The notes beneath the pieces were generated by a model, which was not told the DNA's origin, ran no database searches, and saw only the letters and a list, made by a program, of their open reading frames with translations. Source: Candidatus Rubrimentiphilum sp. (GTDB taxonomy: Bacteria > Vulcanimicrobiota > Vulcanimicrobiia > Vulcanimicrobiales > Vulcanimicrobiaceae). From it: 64,000 nucleotides of DNA. A program made the position numbers and the translations under genes. This document shows, one piece after another, positions 23,428 through 29,887 of this stretch (the stretch's first letter is position 1; each line of letters starts with the position of its first letter). Where the stretch lies: NCBI GenBank assembly GCA_035710515.1, contig DASTDE010000001.1:372001-436000 (forward strand), in the 5' to 3' direction.

Positions 23428-24402
23428 TTGTTTACGTACGTCGCGCGGCGGACGTTCCAGGCGGTTCCGCTGCTGTTGCTGATCTCGCTGATTCTCTTCC
23501 TGATCGTGCACAGCGCGCCGGGCGGCGGTCTGGGCCCGTACTTGCAGAATCCGCACATCACGCCGGCGGACATCGCGCGCCTGAAGCACAACCTTGGCCT
23601 CGATCAGCCGCTGTATAAGCAGTACGTCGCGTGGCTCGGCGAAGTGCTTCGCGGCGATTTCGGGTACTCGACCAGTAACTCCGAGCCGGTCTTCAACGCG
23701 ATCGTCGAGCGCTTGCCGTCAACGCTCCTGTTGATGGGCACCGCCATCACGATCGCCTTCATCATCGGCGTGTCGGCCGGACTCTTCGCCGCCGTTCATC
23801 CGTACTCGACGTGGGACTACTTCATCACGACGTTCGCCTTCTTCGGTCAGTCCATGCCGGTGTTTTGGCTGGCGCTGATGCTGCAGCTCGCGTTTGCGGT
23901 GCACGGAATACCGCTGCCGTTCGGGTACGTGATCCAATTGCCGTCCGCGGGAATATCGAGTTCCGACACGTTCGATTTCGGCGATCGAATTACGCATTTG
24001 ATTCTACCGGCGACAGCGCTGGCGTTTTTGAACATCGCGCTGTACAGCCGGTTCATGCGCAGCTCGATGCTCGAAGTGATCAACACCGATTATATGCGCA
24101 CCGCATCAGCCAAGGGTTTGAGCCGGCGCGTCGTGCTTTTTAAACACGGTCTGAAGAACGCGCTGATTCCACTCGTCACGGTAACGGCACTGTCGCTGCC
24201 GGCGCTCTTCGGCGGCGCGATCGTCACCGAGACCATCTTCGCATGGCCCGGCGAGGGGCGGCTGTTCATCAACGCGCTCGGGCAAGAAGACATCGCCGTG
24301 CTGATGGGCTATTTGATCGTGAACGCGTTTTTGGTGGTGTTCTTTAATCTGTTAGCCGACGTGTTGTACGCTTGGCTCGACCCGCGGGTAAAATACGACT
24401 GA
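23428..24402 (+). CDS. Dipeptide/oligopeptide ABC transporter permease, DppB type
   Basis: A 324-aa inner-membrane permease with a TTG start and the standard DppB N-terminus (TYVARRTFQAVPLLLLIS). It has six hydrophobic helices and the EAA loop (YMRTASAKGLSRRVVLFKHG, ending in NALIPL), followed by GGAIVTETIFAWPGEGRLF, diagnostic for DppB/OppB. It pairs with the next gene (DppC) to form the membrane channel. No substrate-binding protein or DppD/F ATPase is in the window, so these components must be elsewhere. In this operon it may import lysine-derived, peptide or opine substrates for the BKACE branch; that link is inference. Confidence 0.93.
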   Translation: MFTYVARRTFQAVPLLLLISLILFLIVHSAPGGGLGPYLQNPHITPADIARLKHNLGLDQPLYKQYVAWLGEVLRGDFGYSTSNSEPVFNAIVERLPSTLLLMGTAITIAFIIGVSAGLFAAVHPYSTWDYFITTFAFFGQSMPVFWLALMLQLAFAVHGIPLPFGYVIQLPSAGISSSDTFDFGDRITHLILPATALAFLNIALYSRFMRSSMLEVINTDYMRTASAKGLSRRVVLFKHGLKNALIPLVTVTALSLPALFGGAIVTETIFAWPGEGRLFINALGQEDIAVLMGYLIVNAFLVVFFNLLADVLYAWLDPRVKYD

Positions 24403-25346
24403 TGGCTATTTCAGCGCCGCTGCCCGCGCCGTTCATCGCCGAAGACGACAGCACCGTCTATAGCAAGGTCACGGTATGGAAACGTTTCCGCCGCCACCGT
24501 ATGGCGATGGCGGGTGCGGTGGTTTTGCTCATCATGATTTTGGTCGCGATATTTGCTTGGAAGCTCGCGCCGTTCGATCCCAACGCGATCGACGAAGTGC
24601 ACTGGCAGGGCAACCCCGTTGCGCCGTGCTTCCAAAACGCGGCGCAGTGCGGCGGCCACCTTTTAGGCTTGGACGAAAACGGCCGCGACGAGCTCTCGCG
24701 CCTGATGTTCGGCGCGCAGATCTCGCTGACGGTTGCGGTTTCGGCGGTGCTGATGGAGTTGGTCATCGGGACGCTGCTCGGGGCGCTGGCCGGCTATTAC
24801 GGGGGCTGGGTCGACTACATTTTGATGCGCGTCACCGACGTATTTTTGTCTATTCCGCTCTTGCCGTTGCTCTTGGTGTTGACCGGCATCGTGGCGGCGA
24901 GCTCGACGAAAGCGGCGCTCAGTTTTTACGTCATTGTGATCATCATCGGGGGACTCTCTTGGCCCAGTGTGGCCCGTTTGGTGCGCGCCTCGTTCCTCTC
25001 GCTGCGCGAACGCGAGTACGCTGAGGCTGCTCGAGCCGTCGGCAACGGCGATCTGCGCATCATGCTGCGTCATCTGCTGCCCAACGCGATGGCCCCGCTT
25101 ATCGTTCAGGCGACGCTCGACGTCGCCAACGTCATCATCGTGGAGTCCGTGCTCTCGTTCCTGGGCTTCGGCATTCAGCCGCCGACGGCGTCCTGGGGAA
25201 ATATGCTCTCCAACGCCGAGGCGACGCTCCAGGACCAGTGGTGGGCGGCGGTCTTCCCCGGCCTGTGCATTCTCTTCACCGTCCTCGCCATCAACTACAT
25301 CGGCGACGGCTTGCGTGATGCGCTCGATCCGAACGCAATAAAATAG
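24402..25346 (+). CDS. Dipeptide/oligopeptide ABC transporter permease, DppC type
   Basis: A 314-aa partner of the preceding permease. The ATG at 24402 shares its A with the dppB stop (TGATG). Seen: N-terminal WKRFRRHRMAMAGAVVLL, the periplasmic loop ending in HLLGLDENGRDELSRLMFG (classic DppC/OppC signature), and the EAA loop EYAEAARAVGNGDLRIMLRH followed by LLPNAMAPLIV, then SFLGFGIQPPTASWG. The C-terminus is ALDPNAIK. The same eight codons plus stop recur, with only third-position changes, 122 nt downstream. Confidence 0.94.
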   Translation: MAISAPLPAPFIAEDDSTVYSKVTVWKRFRRHRMAMAGAVVLLIMILVAIFAWKLAPFDPNAIDEVHWQGNPVAPCFQNAAQCGGHLLGLDENGRDELSRLMFGAQISLTVAVSAVLMELVIGTLLGALAGYYGGWVDYILMRVTDVFLSIPLLPLLLVLTGIVAASSTKAALSFYVIVIIIGGLSWPSVARLVRASFLSLREREYAEAARAVGNGDLRIMLRHLLPNAMAPLIVQATLDVANVIIVESVLSFLGFGIQPPTASWGNMLSNAEATLQDQWWAAVFPGLCILFTVLAINYIGDGLRDALDPNAIK

Positions 25347-25377
25347 ACACCAACTCTGCCAGCGCATCACGCGGGGA

Positions 25378-25402
25378 GCCCTGCGAGCTTTGCTCGTAGG
25401 GG
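25378..25402 (+). terminator. Strong hairpin after dppC
   Basis: CCCTGCGAGC (25379-25388) pairs with GCTCGTAGGG (25392-25401) through a three-base TTT loop, 10 bp with one G-T pair. No T tract follows, so it is either a Rho-independent terminator without a U-run or part of a palindromic repeat. A smaller GCACC-AAAA-GGTGC hairpin follows at 25410-25423. Confidence 0.45.
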
Positions 25403-25441
25403 GCGCGCAGCACCAAAAGGTGCGGAGTGCCGGTTAAATGG

Positions 25442-25468
25442 GCCCTTGACCCGAACGCTATTAAGTAG
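25442..25468 (+). pseudogene. Relic of a second dppC 3' end (eight codons plus stop)
   Basis: Read in frame, these 27 bases encode ALDPNAIK and a TAG stop, identical to the C-terminus of the intact dppC at 25320-25346. The six differences all fall at third codon positions. That pattern is expected from divergence under protein-level selection, not from chance or from a recent DNA copy. Upstream sequence in the same frame does not match dppC. It looks like the tail of a lost paralogue left beside the tRNA gene. Part of it also overlaps the putative tRNA promoter. Confidence 0.6.
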
Positions 25469-25475
25469 ATAGACT
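25446..25475 (+). promoter_or_regulatory. Putative sigma-70 promoter of tRNA-Leu
   Basis: TTGACC (25446-25451, five of six matches to the -35 consensus) and TAGACT (25470-25475, four of six to the -10 consensus) are 18 nt apart. The predicted transcription start falls about 11 nt before the tRNA 5' end. Sequence match only. Confidence 0.4.
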
Positions 25476-25492: not shown

Positions 25493-25576
25493 GCGCGAGT
25501 GGCGAAATTGGTAGACGCACTAGCTTGAGGGGCTAGCGCCCGCAAGGGCGTGCTGGTTCGAGTCCAGTCTCGCGCA
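25493..25576 (+). tRNA. tRNA-Leu(GAG)
   Basis: The acceptor stem GCGCGAG pairs with CTCGCGC, with discriminator base A at 25576. The D arm contains TGGCGAAATTGGTAGACGCA as in other leucine tRNAs. The anticodon stem CTAGC/GCTAG encloses loop TTGAGGG, giving anticodon GAG (reads CUC/CUU). A long variable arm (GCCCGCAAGGGC) marks it as class II, and the T arm CTGG-TTCGAGT-CCAG closes the fold. The 3' CCA is not encoded. The 3' end is partly repeated at 26274-26289. Confidence 0.95.
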
Positions 25577-25580
25577 AGAA
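25564..25580 (+). repeat. attL-like repeat: 3' end of tRNA-Leu
   Basis: CCAGTCTCGCGCAAGAA at the tRNA 3' end is repeated as CCAGTCTCGCGAAGAA at 26274-26289, with one base deleted. The pair brackets the CVNH gene, as att sites bracket an integrated element. No integrase is present. Confidence 0.45.
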
Positions 25581-25626
25581 AATAAGGCCGGCAGGGCTCC
25601 CCACCGGTCCCGCGCATTTAACGGTC

Positions 25627-26214
25627 ATGAATCGTTTTTGGGCTTTGGCCCCGATGTTCGCCTTAATCGCGACGCTTAGTCCTGTGAAGGCTTTCGCGCA
25701 AAGCATTCCGCCTGGGTCGTATCGCGACTCATGCCGGAATATTAGAGTCAGCAATGGCGTGCTCAGCGCCGAGTGTGCGGTGCCCGACGGGCGGATGCAT
25801 CGCAAGACGAGCATCGAGCTATCGAAATGTGCCGGCCGCGACATCGAAAACAATAGCGGGCGGCTCGAGTGCTGGTTGTCGCCGGCCGAGCCTGGACGCT
25901 TTACGTTGAACATACGCGGCGGTGGCGGCGACTTCGCGGTGGAAGTTTTGGGTGTGGACGTCAACAAAAAGCCCTTCCATCTTTCTGAAACGCGGAAAGG
26001 TGCAGGGCCTCTTGTGTTCCACCACACGGCGTTTCCGCTGCGGGGGATTGCTATCACCGGCGAACAGCGCTTCGAGGTAGAGCGTCCGCGGAAACTTTCC
26101 GTCACCTGCGACTATAAGTGGATTTTCCTCAAAATAACGAACGGGGAAACTCTAACCCTTAATGCCTGGAAGTATGACAGCAACCCCAATTCCTGCGATG
26201 AAAAGCCTCATTAG
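25627..26214 (+). CDS. Secreted cyanovirin-N homology (CVNH) domain protein
   Basis: A 195-aa exported protein with a signal peptide ending near AFAQ (residue 25). The mature N-terminal part matches the CVNH lectin pattern: PPGSYRDSCRNIRV, NGVLSAECAVPDG, SIELSKCAGRDIENNSGRLEC, including the paired Cys residues and the RDIxNNxGxLxC repeat end. CVNH proteins bind mannose-rich glycans. The C-terminal half (about 90-195) is beta-rich and not recognised; it contains GGGGDFAVEVLGVDV and CDYKWIFLKI. The gene stands alone between tRNA-Leu and a partial copy of the tRNA 3' end, suggesting acquisition by integration. Confidence 0.8.
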   Translation: MNRFWALAPMFALIATLSPVKAFAQSIPPGSYRDSCRNIRVSNGVLSAECAVPDGRMHRKTSIELSKCAGRDIENNSGRLECWLSPAEPGRFTLNIRGGGGDFAVEVLGVDVNKKPFHLSETRKGAGPLVFHHTAFPLRGIAITGEQRFEVERPRKLSVTCDYKWIFLKITNGETLTLNAWKYDSNPNSCDEKPH

Positions 26215-26273
26215 CATCCCCGGCGCGTAGGCGTCCGCAGGTGCCGGCGGGTGCTTGCTGTGCCGGAGCAGGG

Positions 26274-26289
26274 CCAGTCTCGCGAAGAA
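26274..26289 (+). repeat. attR-like repeat of the tRNA-Leu 3' end
   Basis: CCAGTCTCGCGAAGAA matches the tRNA-Leu 3' end and its flank with 16 of 17 positions, 710 bp downstream on the same strand. It lies in the spacer between the CVNH gene and the RND pump. Confidence 0.45.
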
Positions 26290-26374
26290 GGCCCGCCCGG
26301 GGTGAAACCGCCAAGGCCTCGGAGCCGTATGGTGAGGTAGCAAGGCTTAGAAGGCAGCGAAGGATTCTTTCATT
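26290..26374 (+). other. GC-rich spacer before the RND pump, possibly a structured leader
   Basis: Short inverted repeats are visible: CCGGC/GCCGG at about 26242-26266, GGGCC/GGCCC at about 26271-26294, and AAGGCCT with AAGGCTT further down. A GGTGAAACCGCC stretch and GAGGTAGCAAGG give it the look of a structured RNA, but I could not match it to cobalamin, c-di-GMP, c-di-AMP, manganese or TPP riboswitches. A purine-rich site (GAAGGA) precedes the RND start codon. Confidence 0.25.
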
Positions 26375-29300
26375 ATGTGGTTGACCCGGTTCGCGATCAA
26401 TCGGCCCATCATCACCGCGGTGGTCTTCATAGGCCTCGCGATTTTTGGCATTATTTCGTTCCTCCAGCTCGGGCGCAGCTCGAACCCGCCGGGAACGGAC
26501 TTTCCGGTGGTGGTCGTCGTCGCGTACTATCCCGGTGCATCGCCCCAAGACATGGAGCGAATGGTCGTCAAGCCGATCGAAGACCAGATGGCCGGCATCG
26601 ACAACCTCGATCATATCTCTGCCACCGCGCAGGAAAGCACCGCGACGGTCGGCGTCGTTTTCAACCTCGGAACGAACATCGATTTGGCGGCAGTCGACGT
26701 GCAGCGCCGCACCGACACCGCTCGCGTCTTCATGCCCAACGATTTGGATCCGCCGAGCGTCATAAAGGCGGGGACGTCGGAGCCGCCGCTGCTCGACATC
26801 GCGGTCAGCTCCGCTAAACTGTCGCAAGCGCAGATCGCCGACGTCATCAACAGCCAAGTCAAGCCGTTGATTGAAGCAATTCCCAACGTCCAGTCGGTCG
26901 ACGTGTACGGATCGGCCAGCCGCGAGTTTCATGTCGAGCCGCTGCCCGGCCAATTGCTTGGGACGAACGCAACCTTAAACGACATCTTTTCTGCAGTTGC
27001 AAACGACAACCTGAACGTGCCGGGCGGCATGATGACTCAGCCGACGCAGGAGTCGACCATTGCGTTGCATTCGTACATTAATAATGTAGGCGACATTCTG
27101 GCCATTCCGCTTGCGGTGCCCAACGGCGCAGGCCAGGGCATGAAGATTGCCGACGTGGCTCACGTCTACGACAGCCACCAGGAGATGCGAACGATCTCGC
27201 ACTTCAACGGCAAGCCGCGCGTCTATATCGGCATAAACCCGGTGCTCAACGCCGATCAAATCAAGGCCACGCAAGTCGCGCGCCAGCAAATGGCGATCAT
27301 CGAGGCGCGCTTTCCGCAACTGAAGTTCACCGAAGAAGACGCCCAAGCAGACCTCACAGCAAAGCAACTCTGGGGCGTCGGTCAGTCGCTGATCGAAGGC
27401 ATTTTCTTGACGGCAATCGTCATGATGCTGTTCTTGCACGCGTGGCGCAACGCCATCGTCGTGCTGATCGCGATACCGAGCTCGATTCTCTCGACGTTCA
27501 TTCTGATGCGGGCGTTCGGCTTCCACATCGACAGCCTGTCCATGATGGGATTGTCGCTTATCATCGGTATCTTGGTCGACGACTCGATCGTGGTGCTTGA
27601 GAATATCGCACGACATCGAGATCTCGGGCAGAAGCCGGTCGACGCCGCGATCAACGGCCGCTCCGAAATCGGCAACGCGGCAGTTGCGATCACGATGGTT
27701 GACGTCGTCGTCTTTTTACCGATCGCGTTTATGCCCGGATTGGTGGGCACGTATTTGAAAGAATACGGGGCAGTGGTCGTCACGGCGACACTGTTCTCGC
27801 TGTTCGTTTCGTTCACGCTCACGCCGCTGCTGGCCGCCAAATGGAGCATGCTGAAACGTTCGGAAGGCGACCCGGGCTGGGTTCGCGCGCTGGACAACAG
27901 GGTTATGGATATCGCGCTCGTCGCGACTGCCCTCGGCATGTTCGTTCTGGGCAACGTGACCGGCTGGTTCTTGCTCAATGTCTTCGCCGTCTTCATCGTC
28001 GCGTTGCTGATTCTCAATTTCATCGTGCACCGCTATGAGGCGTTCACGGAGTATTACTTCGATAAACTGCTGCCGTTTGCGCTTACGCACGGAAGCTTCG
28101 TTGTCTTCGTCTGCGTGGCGTTGCTGCTGAATGCATTCTCGCTCTTGGGCGGCGGCGGCATCGCAACCGCTTTCGTCGACGGGTTCCTCTTTGCGGTGAC
28201 CGGCATTACGTACGTACTCGCGATCTTTTTCCGCGCTTTCGGCTGGAATAAAGTGAGCAGCGAAAACCGCGCGCTGGATTGGCTGATTTGCATGCCGCTG
28301 CGCTGGTACAGTTCGCTCGGGACCTATCCTCCGCTCACGCTGGCAAGTCTGGGTTTCCCAATCGTGGCCGCACTTACCATCGGTTTGCTGGGCGGCGTCA
28401 ACTTCGACTTCTTCCCGGCGCAGCAGACCGGCGTCATCAGCATGACGGTGAGTTATGCTTCGGGGACGCCGATCGCAACGACGAACCGGTTCGTCGGTCA
28501 GCTCGAAACCGCCATTATGAAGCTGCCGGGCGTCAAGTCCGTAAGTTCGACGGTCGGCCGTAAGCCTGCGAGCTTCAGCGGAATAACGGGCGGAAACTTC
28601 GCGCAACTTACCGCGCAAATGGACGACGGTCATATCAAGGACACCAACAAAACCGTCGCCACTATTCGCAAGTTGGGTTACCTTGTGCCAGGCGGCGACT
28701 TTGAGGTTGCGCAAGAGAGCGGCAACGGCTCAGCGGTGCAGTATTCGATGACCGGCCCCGAAGATCAGATCGGGCCGGCGGCCGAGAAAGTGGCGCGCTT
28801 CCTGCGGACAGTTCCGGGCGCGATCAACGTCCAGACCTCCGCCGAGATTGCCGCACCTCGCTTAAACGTGGACATCAATCAGTCGAAAGCCTCGCTGCTC
28901 GGCGTCGCACCCTCGGCAGCGGCGAACGTCGCGCGCATCGCCGTCGGCGGGGCGGTCGCAACCAAAGTGCGCACACCCAACGGCCTTGTTGACGTGCGCG
29001 TGCAATTTCCGCCCGCCGATCGCAATTCGGTCGATAACTTAAAGAACGTCCGAGTGCGCGCGAACAATGGAATGCTCGTTCCGCTCGGATCTATCGCGGA
29101 CTTCACGTGGACGAAAGCGCCGACACGCGTCGAGCGCTACAACCGCCAGCGCGTCGTCAACGTTTTCTCCGACATGTTGCCCGGCTACTCATCCGGTCAG
29201 CTTATCGGACCGCTCACGAAGAAGATGCGCGAACCCGGTTTCTTACCGGCCGGTGTGGCGCCGGCGGCTCAGGGCAATGCGCTCTGGGTAGGCCAAGCGA

Positions 29301-29887
29301 TGACGAATCTGGGAATCGCGGTTATAACTTCGGCCGTCCTCATTTACGCGCTGATGGTGATCCTGTACGGTTCGTTCGTAGAACCGCTGATCGTCATGTT
29401 CTCGGTGCCGCTGGCGCTGATCGGTGCGCTCTTGTTCCTGGGTTTGATGGGCCGCATTCAGCCGGAGCAAGGACAGTCGCTGAACATCATCTCGCTGCTC
29501 GGTGTCATCATGCTCTTCGGCTTGGTCGCCAAGAACGGAATATTGCTCGTCGATTATTCGAACACGCTGGTCAAGCGCGGCATGCGTGTGCGCGATGCGG
29601 TGCTCCGTGCGGCTGCGACGCGATTCCGTCCGATTTTGATGACCACCGCTGCGATGATCTTCGGCATGCTGCCGCTCTCTTTGGGATATGCCGAGGGTGG
29701 CGAGTGGCGCCAAGCGATGGGCACGGTCATTATCGGAGGGCTGCTGAGCTCGCTCGCGCTGACGATCTTCATCGTTCCGATGATCTACAACACCTGGATG
29801 GGTTACTTCGAGCGGCTCGCCGATGCAAAGGCGGTCCGGGAAGAATTGCGGCCGCAGGGCGTCGGCGCGGGAGTTCCCGCCTCGTAA
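26375..29887 (+). CDS. RND-family multidrug/HAE1-type efflux permease with an enlarged central region
   Basis: A 1170-aa proton-driven inner-membrane exporter. Seen: N-terminal WLTRFAINRPIITAVV, the porter domain beginning PVVVVVAYYPGASPQDME, the TM4 proton-relay pair Asp402-Asp403 in GILVDDSIVVLENI, TM10 Lys1053 in LVAKNGILLVDYSN, and LMTTAAMIFGMLPLSLG. Usual HAE1 pumps have about 1030-1050 residues; the extra ~120 lie between TM6 and TM7 (about 505-640) and contain about four further hydrophobic segments. No membrane-fusion protein or outer-membrane channel gene is adjacent, so those partners must be encoded elsewhere. Confidence 0.93.
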   Translation: MWLTRFAINRPIITAVVFIGLAIFGIISFLQLGRSSNPPGTDFPVVVVVAYYPGASPQDMERMVVKPIEDQMAGIDNLDHISATAQESTATVGVVFNLGTNIDLAAVDVQRRTDTARVFMPNDLDPPSVIKAGTSEPPLLDIAVSSAKLSQAQIADVINSQVKPLIEAIPNVQSVDVYGSASREFHVEPLPGQLLGTNATLNDIFSAVANDNLNVPGGMMTQPTQESTIALHSYINNVGDILAIPLAVPNGAGQGMKIADVAHVYDSHQEMRTISHFNGKPRVYIGINPVLNADQIKATQVARQQMAIIEARFPQLKFTEEDAQADLTAKQLWGVGQSLIEGIFLTAIVMMLFLHAWRNAIVVLIAIPSSILSTFILMRAFGFHIDSLSMMGLSLIIGILVDDSIVVLENIARHRDLGQKPVDAAINGRSEIGNAAVAITMVDVVVFLPIAFMPGLVGTYLKEYGAVVVTATLFSLFVSFTLTPLLAAKWSMLKRSEGDPGWVRALDNRVMDIALVATALGMFVLGNVTGWFLLNVFAVFIVALLILNFIVHRYEAFTEYYFDKLLPFALTHGSFVVFVCVALLLNAFSLLGGGGIATAFVDGFLFAVTGITYVLAIFFRAFGWNKVSSENRALDWLICMPLRWYSSLGTYPPLTLASLGFPIVAALTIGLLGGVNFDFFPAQQTGVISMTVSYASGTPIATTNRFVGQLETAIMKLPGVKSVSSTVGRKPASFSGITGGNFAQLTAQMDDGHIKDTNKTVATIRKLGYLVPGGDFEVAQESGNGSAVQYSMTGPEDQIGPAAEKVARFLRTVPGAINVQTSAEIAAPRLNVDINQSKASLLGVAPSAAANVARIAVGGAVATKVRTPNGLVDVRVQFPPADRNSVDNLKNVRVRANNGMLVPLGSIADFTWTKAPTRVERYNRQRVVNVFSDMLPGYSSGQLIGPLTKKMREPGFLPAGVAPAAQGNALWVGQAMTNLGIAVITSAVLIYALMVILYGSFVEPLIVMFSVPLALIGALLFLGLMGRIQPEQGQSLNIISLLGVIMLFGLVAKNGILLVDYSNTLVKRGMRVRDAVLRAAATRFRPILMTTAAMIFGMLPLSLGYAEGGEWRQAMGTVIIGGLLSSLALTIFIVPMIYNTWMGYFERLADAKAVREELRPQGVGAGVPAS

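Follow-up and report, generated by a model that had tools for sequence, protein, structure and literature searches.

The window (the whole stretch of DNA analysed, 64,000 nucleotides, C1:372001-436000) belongs to the genome of a soil bacterium of the phylum Eremiobacterota (G000; 2.54 Mb, 2,541,139 bases in 5 contigs). The nearest named relatives of its RND gene are found in the Candidatus Eremiobacterota MAGs fen_1528 (PLLF01000061.1, 88% identical), palsa_1523 (PLWS01), and bin6A (JAAXCW01). A gene for a CVNH-domain protein lies between tRNA-Leu(GAG) and this RND gene, and the locus contains the following features.

24372..25346, + strand: dppC-type permease gene (PF00528), the conserved left-hand neighbour
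25320..25469, + strand: duplicated dppC 3' end, with 79% identity between the copies 25320-25347 and 25442-25469
25493..25576, + strand: tRNA-Leu(GAG) (ARAGORN), intact, the left edge, its 3' end the presumed attachment site; upstream of RND in 73 genomes including G000
25564..25580, + strand: left copy of the 17-nt repeat CCAGTCTCGCGCAAGAA, 13 nt of tRNA and 4 nt of flank
25581..26273, + strand: insert between the repeat copies, 693 bp, missing from the empty-site congeners and without relation to the G001 insert
25627..26214, + strand: gene for a CVNH-domain protein of 195 aa (Pfam PF08881)
26274..26289, + strand: right repeat copy CCAGTCTCGCGAAGAA, one base deleted, located at the tRNA-end position of empty-site relatives
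26303..26329, + strand: RND promoter-like motif TGAAAC-N17-CGTA, intact 3' of the insert and present in 67 of 73 genomes
26375..29887, + strand: RND efflux pump gene (PF00873), the conserved right-hand neighbour

As the preliminary description had claimed, the only gene between the repeat copies is CVNH-like. Residues 32 to 93 of the product align to positions 1 to 53 of the PF08881 profile (28.9 bits, against a cut-off of 24.5). The protein is like CVNH lectins in that the first half of the profile scores above the cut-off and unlike them in that the second half of the full two-repeat domain (102 profile positions) is unmatched and the C-terminal part of ∼100 aa is nearly without relatives (one weak match, E of 0.005, in 117 genomes). 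Sequence matches to solved CVNH proteins are weak (5k79, E of 0.032; 2jzj, E of 0.033), and the single-sequence fold was uninformative (pLDDT of 36) and was not used. An N-terminal hydrophobic leader was read by eye, and, judging from its domain, the lectin is probably secreted to bind carbohydrates. The base composition of the gene (GC, 0.562; GC3, 0.662) compared with that of six neighbouring genes (0.594 to 0.637 and 0.677 to 0.818, respectively) may be taken as suggestive only. A phage, plasmid, or viral origin was rejected, as tblastn searches against phages and plasmids found nothing, and pattern scans of viral and genome contig collections gave no relative of the lectin gene.

A survey of 117 genomes of the class yielded 73 tRNA-Leu(GAG)-RND pairs for comparison, with G000 among them. 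G078 was excluded because no tRNA-Leu was found upstream of its RND gene, G119 was not counted because a contig end interrupts it, and G003, the sixth congener (completeness, 56%), was unusable, as it gave no match to the RND N terminus at an E value of 1e-48 or better; the RND orthologues in the pairs of G034 and G036 are less certain. CVNH relatives are present in 22 of the 117 genomes, including G000, and are absent from the other 72 tRNA-RND spacers. By contig names, none of the other 21 CVNH-bearing genomes has its CVNH gene on the contig of the tRNA-RND pair, and among the 25 CVNH loci elsewhere that were scanned by ARAGORN (L015 and L118 being the same gene), a tRNA was found at L005 only. 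The congeners G002, G005, and G006 carry a different CVNH gene elsewhere, beside a conserved 400-aa gene and with 38 to 39% identity; relocation of this gene was rejected on the grounds of its low identity and different place. That the CVNH gene is ancestral at the site and has been lost in all relatives is extremely improbable: its presence in G000, and nothing beyond, favours this reading, while the 72 spacers without it, the position and divergence of the congeners' gene, and parsimony all argue against it.

The repeat CCAGTCTCGCGCAAGAA (25564 to 25580) is found again as CCAGTCTCGCGAAGAA at 26274 to 26289, 710 bp on and minus one C, which bears out the imperfect copy of the tRNA-Leu 3' end previously reported there. 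The right copy might be a chance match, with the CVNH gene a lineage-specific gene in a variable intergenic region, given that the copy is just 16 to 17 nt long with an indel and that ∼3 one-mismatch 11-mer matches are expected by chance per 64 kb. Several lines of evidence make this very unlikely. First, the pattern CCAGTCTCGCGN{0,1}AAGAA has exactly two matches in the 2,541,139-base genome, both at this locus and on the same strand, and the reversed-pattern control has none. Second, the score of the copy was reached in 1 of 200 shuffles of the whole spacer (0 of 200 with a shorter tRNA query) and, within the 56 nt just before the RND promoter where the copy is expected, in 1 of 5,000. Third, a homologous copy is present in the sister species G001 and an independent case in G002. 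The chance-match reading was rejected on the genome-wide pattern count and the position test. Among the 46 tRNAs of G000, tRNA-Leu(GAG) alone is followed, within 0.8 kb, by a direct repeat of its 3' end with a score as high as 13.5. The next-best direct scores (Tyr, 12.0; Gln, 11.0; Lys, 11.0) come from matches in the T-loop regions of apparent neighbouring tRNA genes, and tRNA-Cys has an inverted match with a score of 13.0.

The gene order dppB, dppC, tRNA-Leu(GAG), RND is kept in all 18 relatives first fetched. Within the genus, the distance from tRNA to RND is 71 bp in G006, 72 bp in G004, 73 bp in G005, 122 bp in G002, and 236 bp in G001, compared with 798 bp in G000. G004, G005, and G006 represent the empty sites that the preliminary description had proposed to look for in related genomes: in each, the RND leader follows immediately on the tRNA end. 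In G000, G001, and G002, the place of this tRNA end is occupied by a second tRNA end, 85, 75, and 67 bp before the RND start, respectively. In the junction alignment, the right copy of G000 falls exactly at the tRNA/RND-leader junction of the empty-site congeners, and its orientation and side are those expected for a displaced tRNA end. The closest relative, the sister species G001, has an undeleted right copy at the same place and an unrelated 0.14-kb insert without CVNH; no similarity above chance level was found between the G000 and G001 inserts (score judged by eye, without shuffles). In a nine-row RND tree, G000 and G001 fall together with a support of 90/90, as do G002 and G004 to G006 with one of 99/99. 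Since the G001 copy retains the base missing in G000, the deletion postdates the split of the two species, whereas the G002 copy matches the altered tRNA sequence of G002 itself and therefore has a separate origin.

Across the 73 pairs, the shortest gap between tRNA and RND is 45 bp and the longest 27 kb. Insertions are unevenly distributed between the two sides of the tRNA: of the 53 pairs with dppC in the fetched sequence (the other 20, which gave no usable dppC hit there, were excluded), 30 have a spacer of >300 bp on the 3' side and 3 have one on the 5' side. Spacer contents include a cobyrinate-synthase-like gene with an SPFH gene (G030 and, by position and sequence, G084), a Phd/PIN toxin-antitoxin-like pair (G010), SnoaL-like and cNMP-binding-like genes (G016), and peptidase, kinase, and hydrolase genes. 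An integrase-bearing version of the element, a further check proposed earlier, was found in another genus of the family: in G112, a 9.0-kb island between the tRNA and a 57-nt identical tRNA-end copy contains a tyrosine integrase (PF00589; E of 2.2e-20) adjoining the tRNA, plus a resolvase. In G036, 67-nt identical repeats 0.9 kb apart enclose a single 213-aa ORF (a DUF2442 match below the Pfam cut-off). As both an empty site and an integrase-bearing version exist, the tRNA-Leu(GAG) end is an integration site of the family, at which the CVNH segment has been inserted.

Direct tRNA-end copies scoring at least 13 were found in 13 of the 73 spacers and inverted copies in 11. Direct copies lie >300 nt from the tRNA in G000, G036, G070, G076, G085, and G112, that of G085 being weak (13.5) and stopping short of the tRNA end. 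Ten of the 11 inverted copies lie within about 31 nt of the tRNA, mostly starting 12 to 31 nt away, and look like extended terminator hairpins or variable-arm copies; the eleventh (G021) is weak (14.0) and 3.6 kb from the tRNA. The spacers of G018 (L069), G064 (L179), and G075 (L182) share a ∼120-bp element downstream of tRNA-Leu, in which an inverted variable-arm piece and hairpins are followed by a direct copy of the tRNA 3' half; G019 has the inverted variable-arm piece alone.

Two further observations concern tRNA-Leu ends elsewhere. A G000 island of about 27 kb at tRNA-Leu(CAG) (G000:C4:548652-575997; L204 and L206) has an intact 396-aa tyrosine integrase beside the tRNA and a 23-nt tRNA-end copy 27.2 kb away. 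The IMG/VR contig L251 (IMGVR_UViG_3300047171_000035) carries a tRNA-Leu(GAG) 3' fragment that starts from the anticodon loop and has no 5' half, an attP-like arrangement; a search of this contig for PF00589 gave no match.

The best reading of these results is that an integration hotspot 3' of tRNA-Leu(GAG), common to the family, is now occupied by the CVNH segment in this species alone. More specifically, we assign a probability of roughly 0.6 to the segment being a decayed integrative element at this tRNA. In an ancestor shared by the G000 species and G001, a tyrosine-integrase element would have integrated into the 3' end of the tRNA. The tRNA would have been restored in the process and its former 3' end shifted rightward, to survive as the degraded copy before the RND promoter. 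Later, the integrase and most of the other contents of the element would have disappeared, and its interior would have diverged to leave one lectin gene in G000 and a short hairpin-rich remnant in G001. Such insertions may be tolerated because they leave a restored tRNA and because RND has a promoter of its own, which lies to the right of where they enter. In 67 of 73 genomes, the motif TGAAAC (or CGAAAC)-N17-CGTA, which we take to resemble an ECF-sigma promoter, is found before the RND start, mostly at a distance of 53 to 94 bp. It does not occur in shuffles, and in the empty-site genomes it begins right at the tRNA end.

The preliminary description had gone further in proposing that a minimal or decayed element delivered the lectin gene. 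Insertion at an integration site stands, given the empty sites and the island of G112, but delivery is not supported, as G001 has the same right copy with different content and gene-less tRNA-end copies are common at this locus. Other points also speak against a decayed element. The CVNH segment shows neither an integrase or its relic nor evidence of excision: its sole Pfam-assigned ORF is the CVNH gene, and the four PF00589 matches of the genome lie elsewhere. The repeat is short and damaged, and its score of 13.5 is no better than those of the weak matches in the much longer gaps of G085 and G021. Inverted copies, which are not made by integration, are almost as frequent as direct ones (11 versus 13 of 73), and CVNH relatives elsewhere are not tRNA linked.

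The common occurrence of cargo-less copies means that the G000 repeat could be an older scar, generated by replication template switching or tandem duplication at the tRNA and terminator hairpins, and that the CVNH gene could have entered a permissive spacer later by an unrelated insertion rather than having been brought by the repeat. We consider this possible but rather unlikely. It is favoured by the copies with no gene between them and the tRNA in G001 (which has no CVNH), G002, G018, G064, G075, and G084, several with inverted partners and that of G084 repeating the tRNA end and flank in the manner of a tandem duplication, and by the duplicated dppC 3' end of G000. The latter represents a further insertion-like event, this one 5' of the tRNA, so that something other than tRNA integration duplicates DNA at this locus, and it further weakens the delivery claim. 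Against a scar stand the position of the copy, precisely where inserted DNA meets conserved DNA, and the clear integrase-bearing and long-repeat cases at the same site.

With regard to the dppC side itself, the stretch from 25344 to 25470 has no second copy in the G000 genome, and a dispersed repeat was therefore rejected as the source of the insert. A 12-nt perfect inverted repeat at the dppC end (window positions 25313 to 25372; GCGTGATGCGCT / AGCGCATCACGC) suggests fold-back copying. The dppC genes of L056 (G001) and L060 (G005) are split by ∼310 bp near residues 130 to 144 (tblastn), as if by an insertion inside the gene.

A more speculative proposal, which we regard as doubtful, is that Eremiobacterota carry a class of very small integrase-less cassettes of ∼0.5 to 1 kb, each flanked by repeats of the tRNA-Leu(GAG) 3' end and mobilised in trans by integrases like that of G112, with the tRNA serving as a single-gene docking site. 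The cassettes, often holding one gene or none, would include the G000 lectin, the DUF2442-like gene of G036, and the inserts of G070 and G076.

Our preferred reading, a decayed element in a tRNA integration hotspot, is of a known kind. Integration is described as a general source of tRNA fragments (PMC9897764). Islander islands, as outlined in PMC4383910, are defined by a displaced tRNA fragment in addition to the intact tRNA, by an integrase, and by a length of at least 2 kb (range, 2 to 200 kb). The G000 locus has both tRNA parts: the tRNA is intact, and a 3' fragment of it, one base short, lies downstream with the same orientation. Damaged 3' fragments are noted in that account too (PMC4383910), the damage lying 3 bp upstream of the discriminator, compared with the base lost next to the discriminator in G000. 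The CVNH interval differs from the islands of that outline (PMC4383910) in having no integrase and in measuring 710 bp from copy to copy. An empty site in relatives, the general mark of a tRNA island, is present in G004, G005, and G006. Lacking the integrase and the length, the segment is best called a decayed tRNA-island remnant. CIMEs, in the description given by PMC5704250, retain attL and attR after gene loss. The CVNH segment has no recombination genes either, and its degraded repeats may correspond to attL and attR; G001 shares the right copy with other content. Unlike the CIMEs so described (PMC5704250), it is far smaller and has no active neighbour element at this tRNA. Tycheposons, known from Prochlorococcus and, in PMC10872708, from Methylophilaceae, are likewise cargo islands bordered by a tRNA, and recurring tRNA-end repeats mark another island in the latter account. 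Tycheposons measure 4 to 200 kb and carry a tyrosine recombinase (PMC10872708), in contrast to the integrase-less 0.7-kb segment of G000.

For a phylum that has received little study, the locus documents a hotspot of chromosomal integration at which a single tRNA gene is seen in empty, decayed, and integrase-bearing states, with the lectin gene as lineage-specific cargo. Should the small cassettes prove to move in trans, they would rank as hitchhiking elements of unusually small size.
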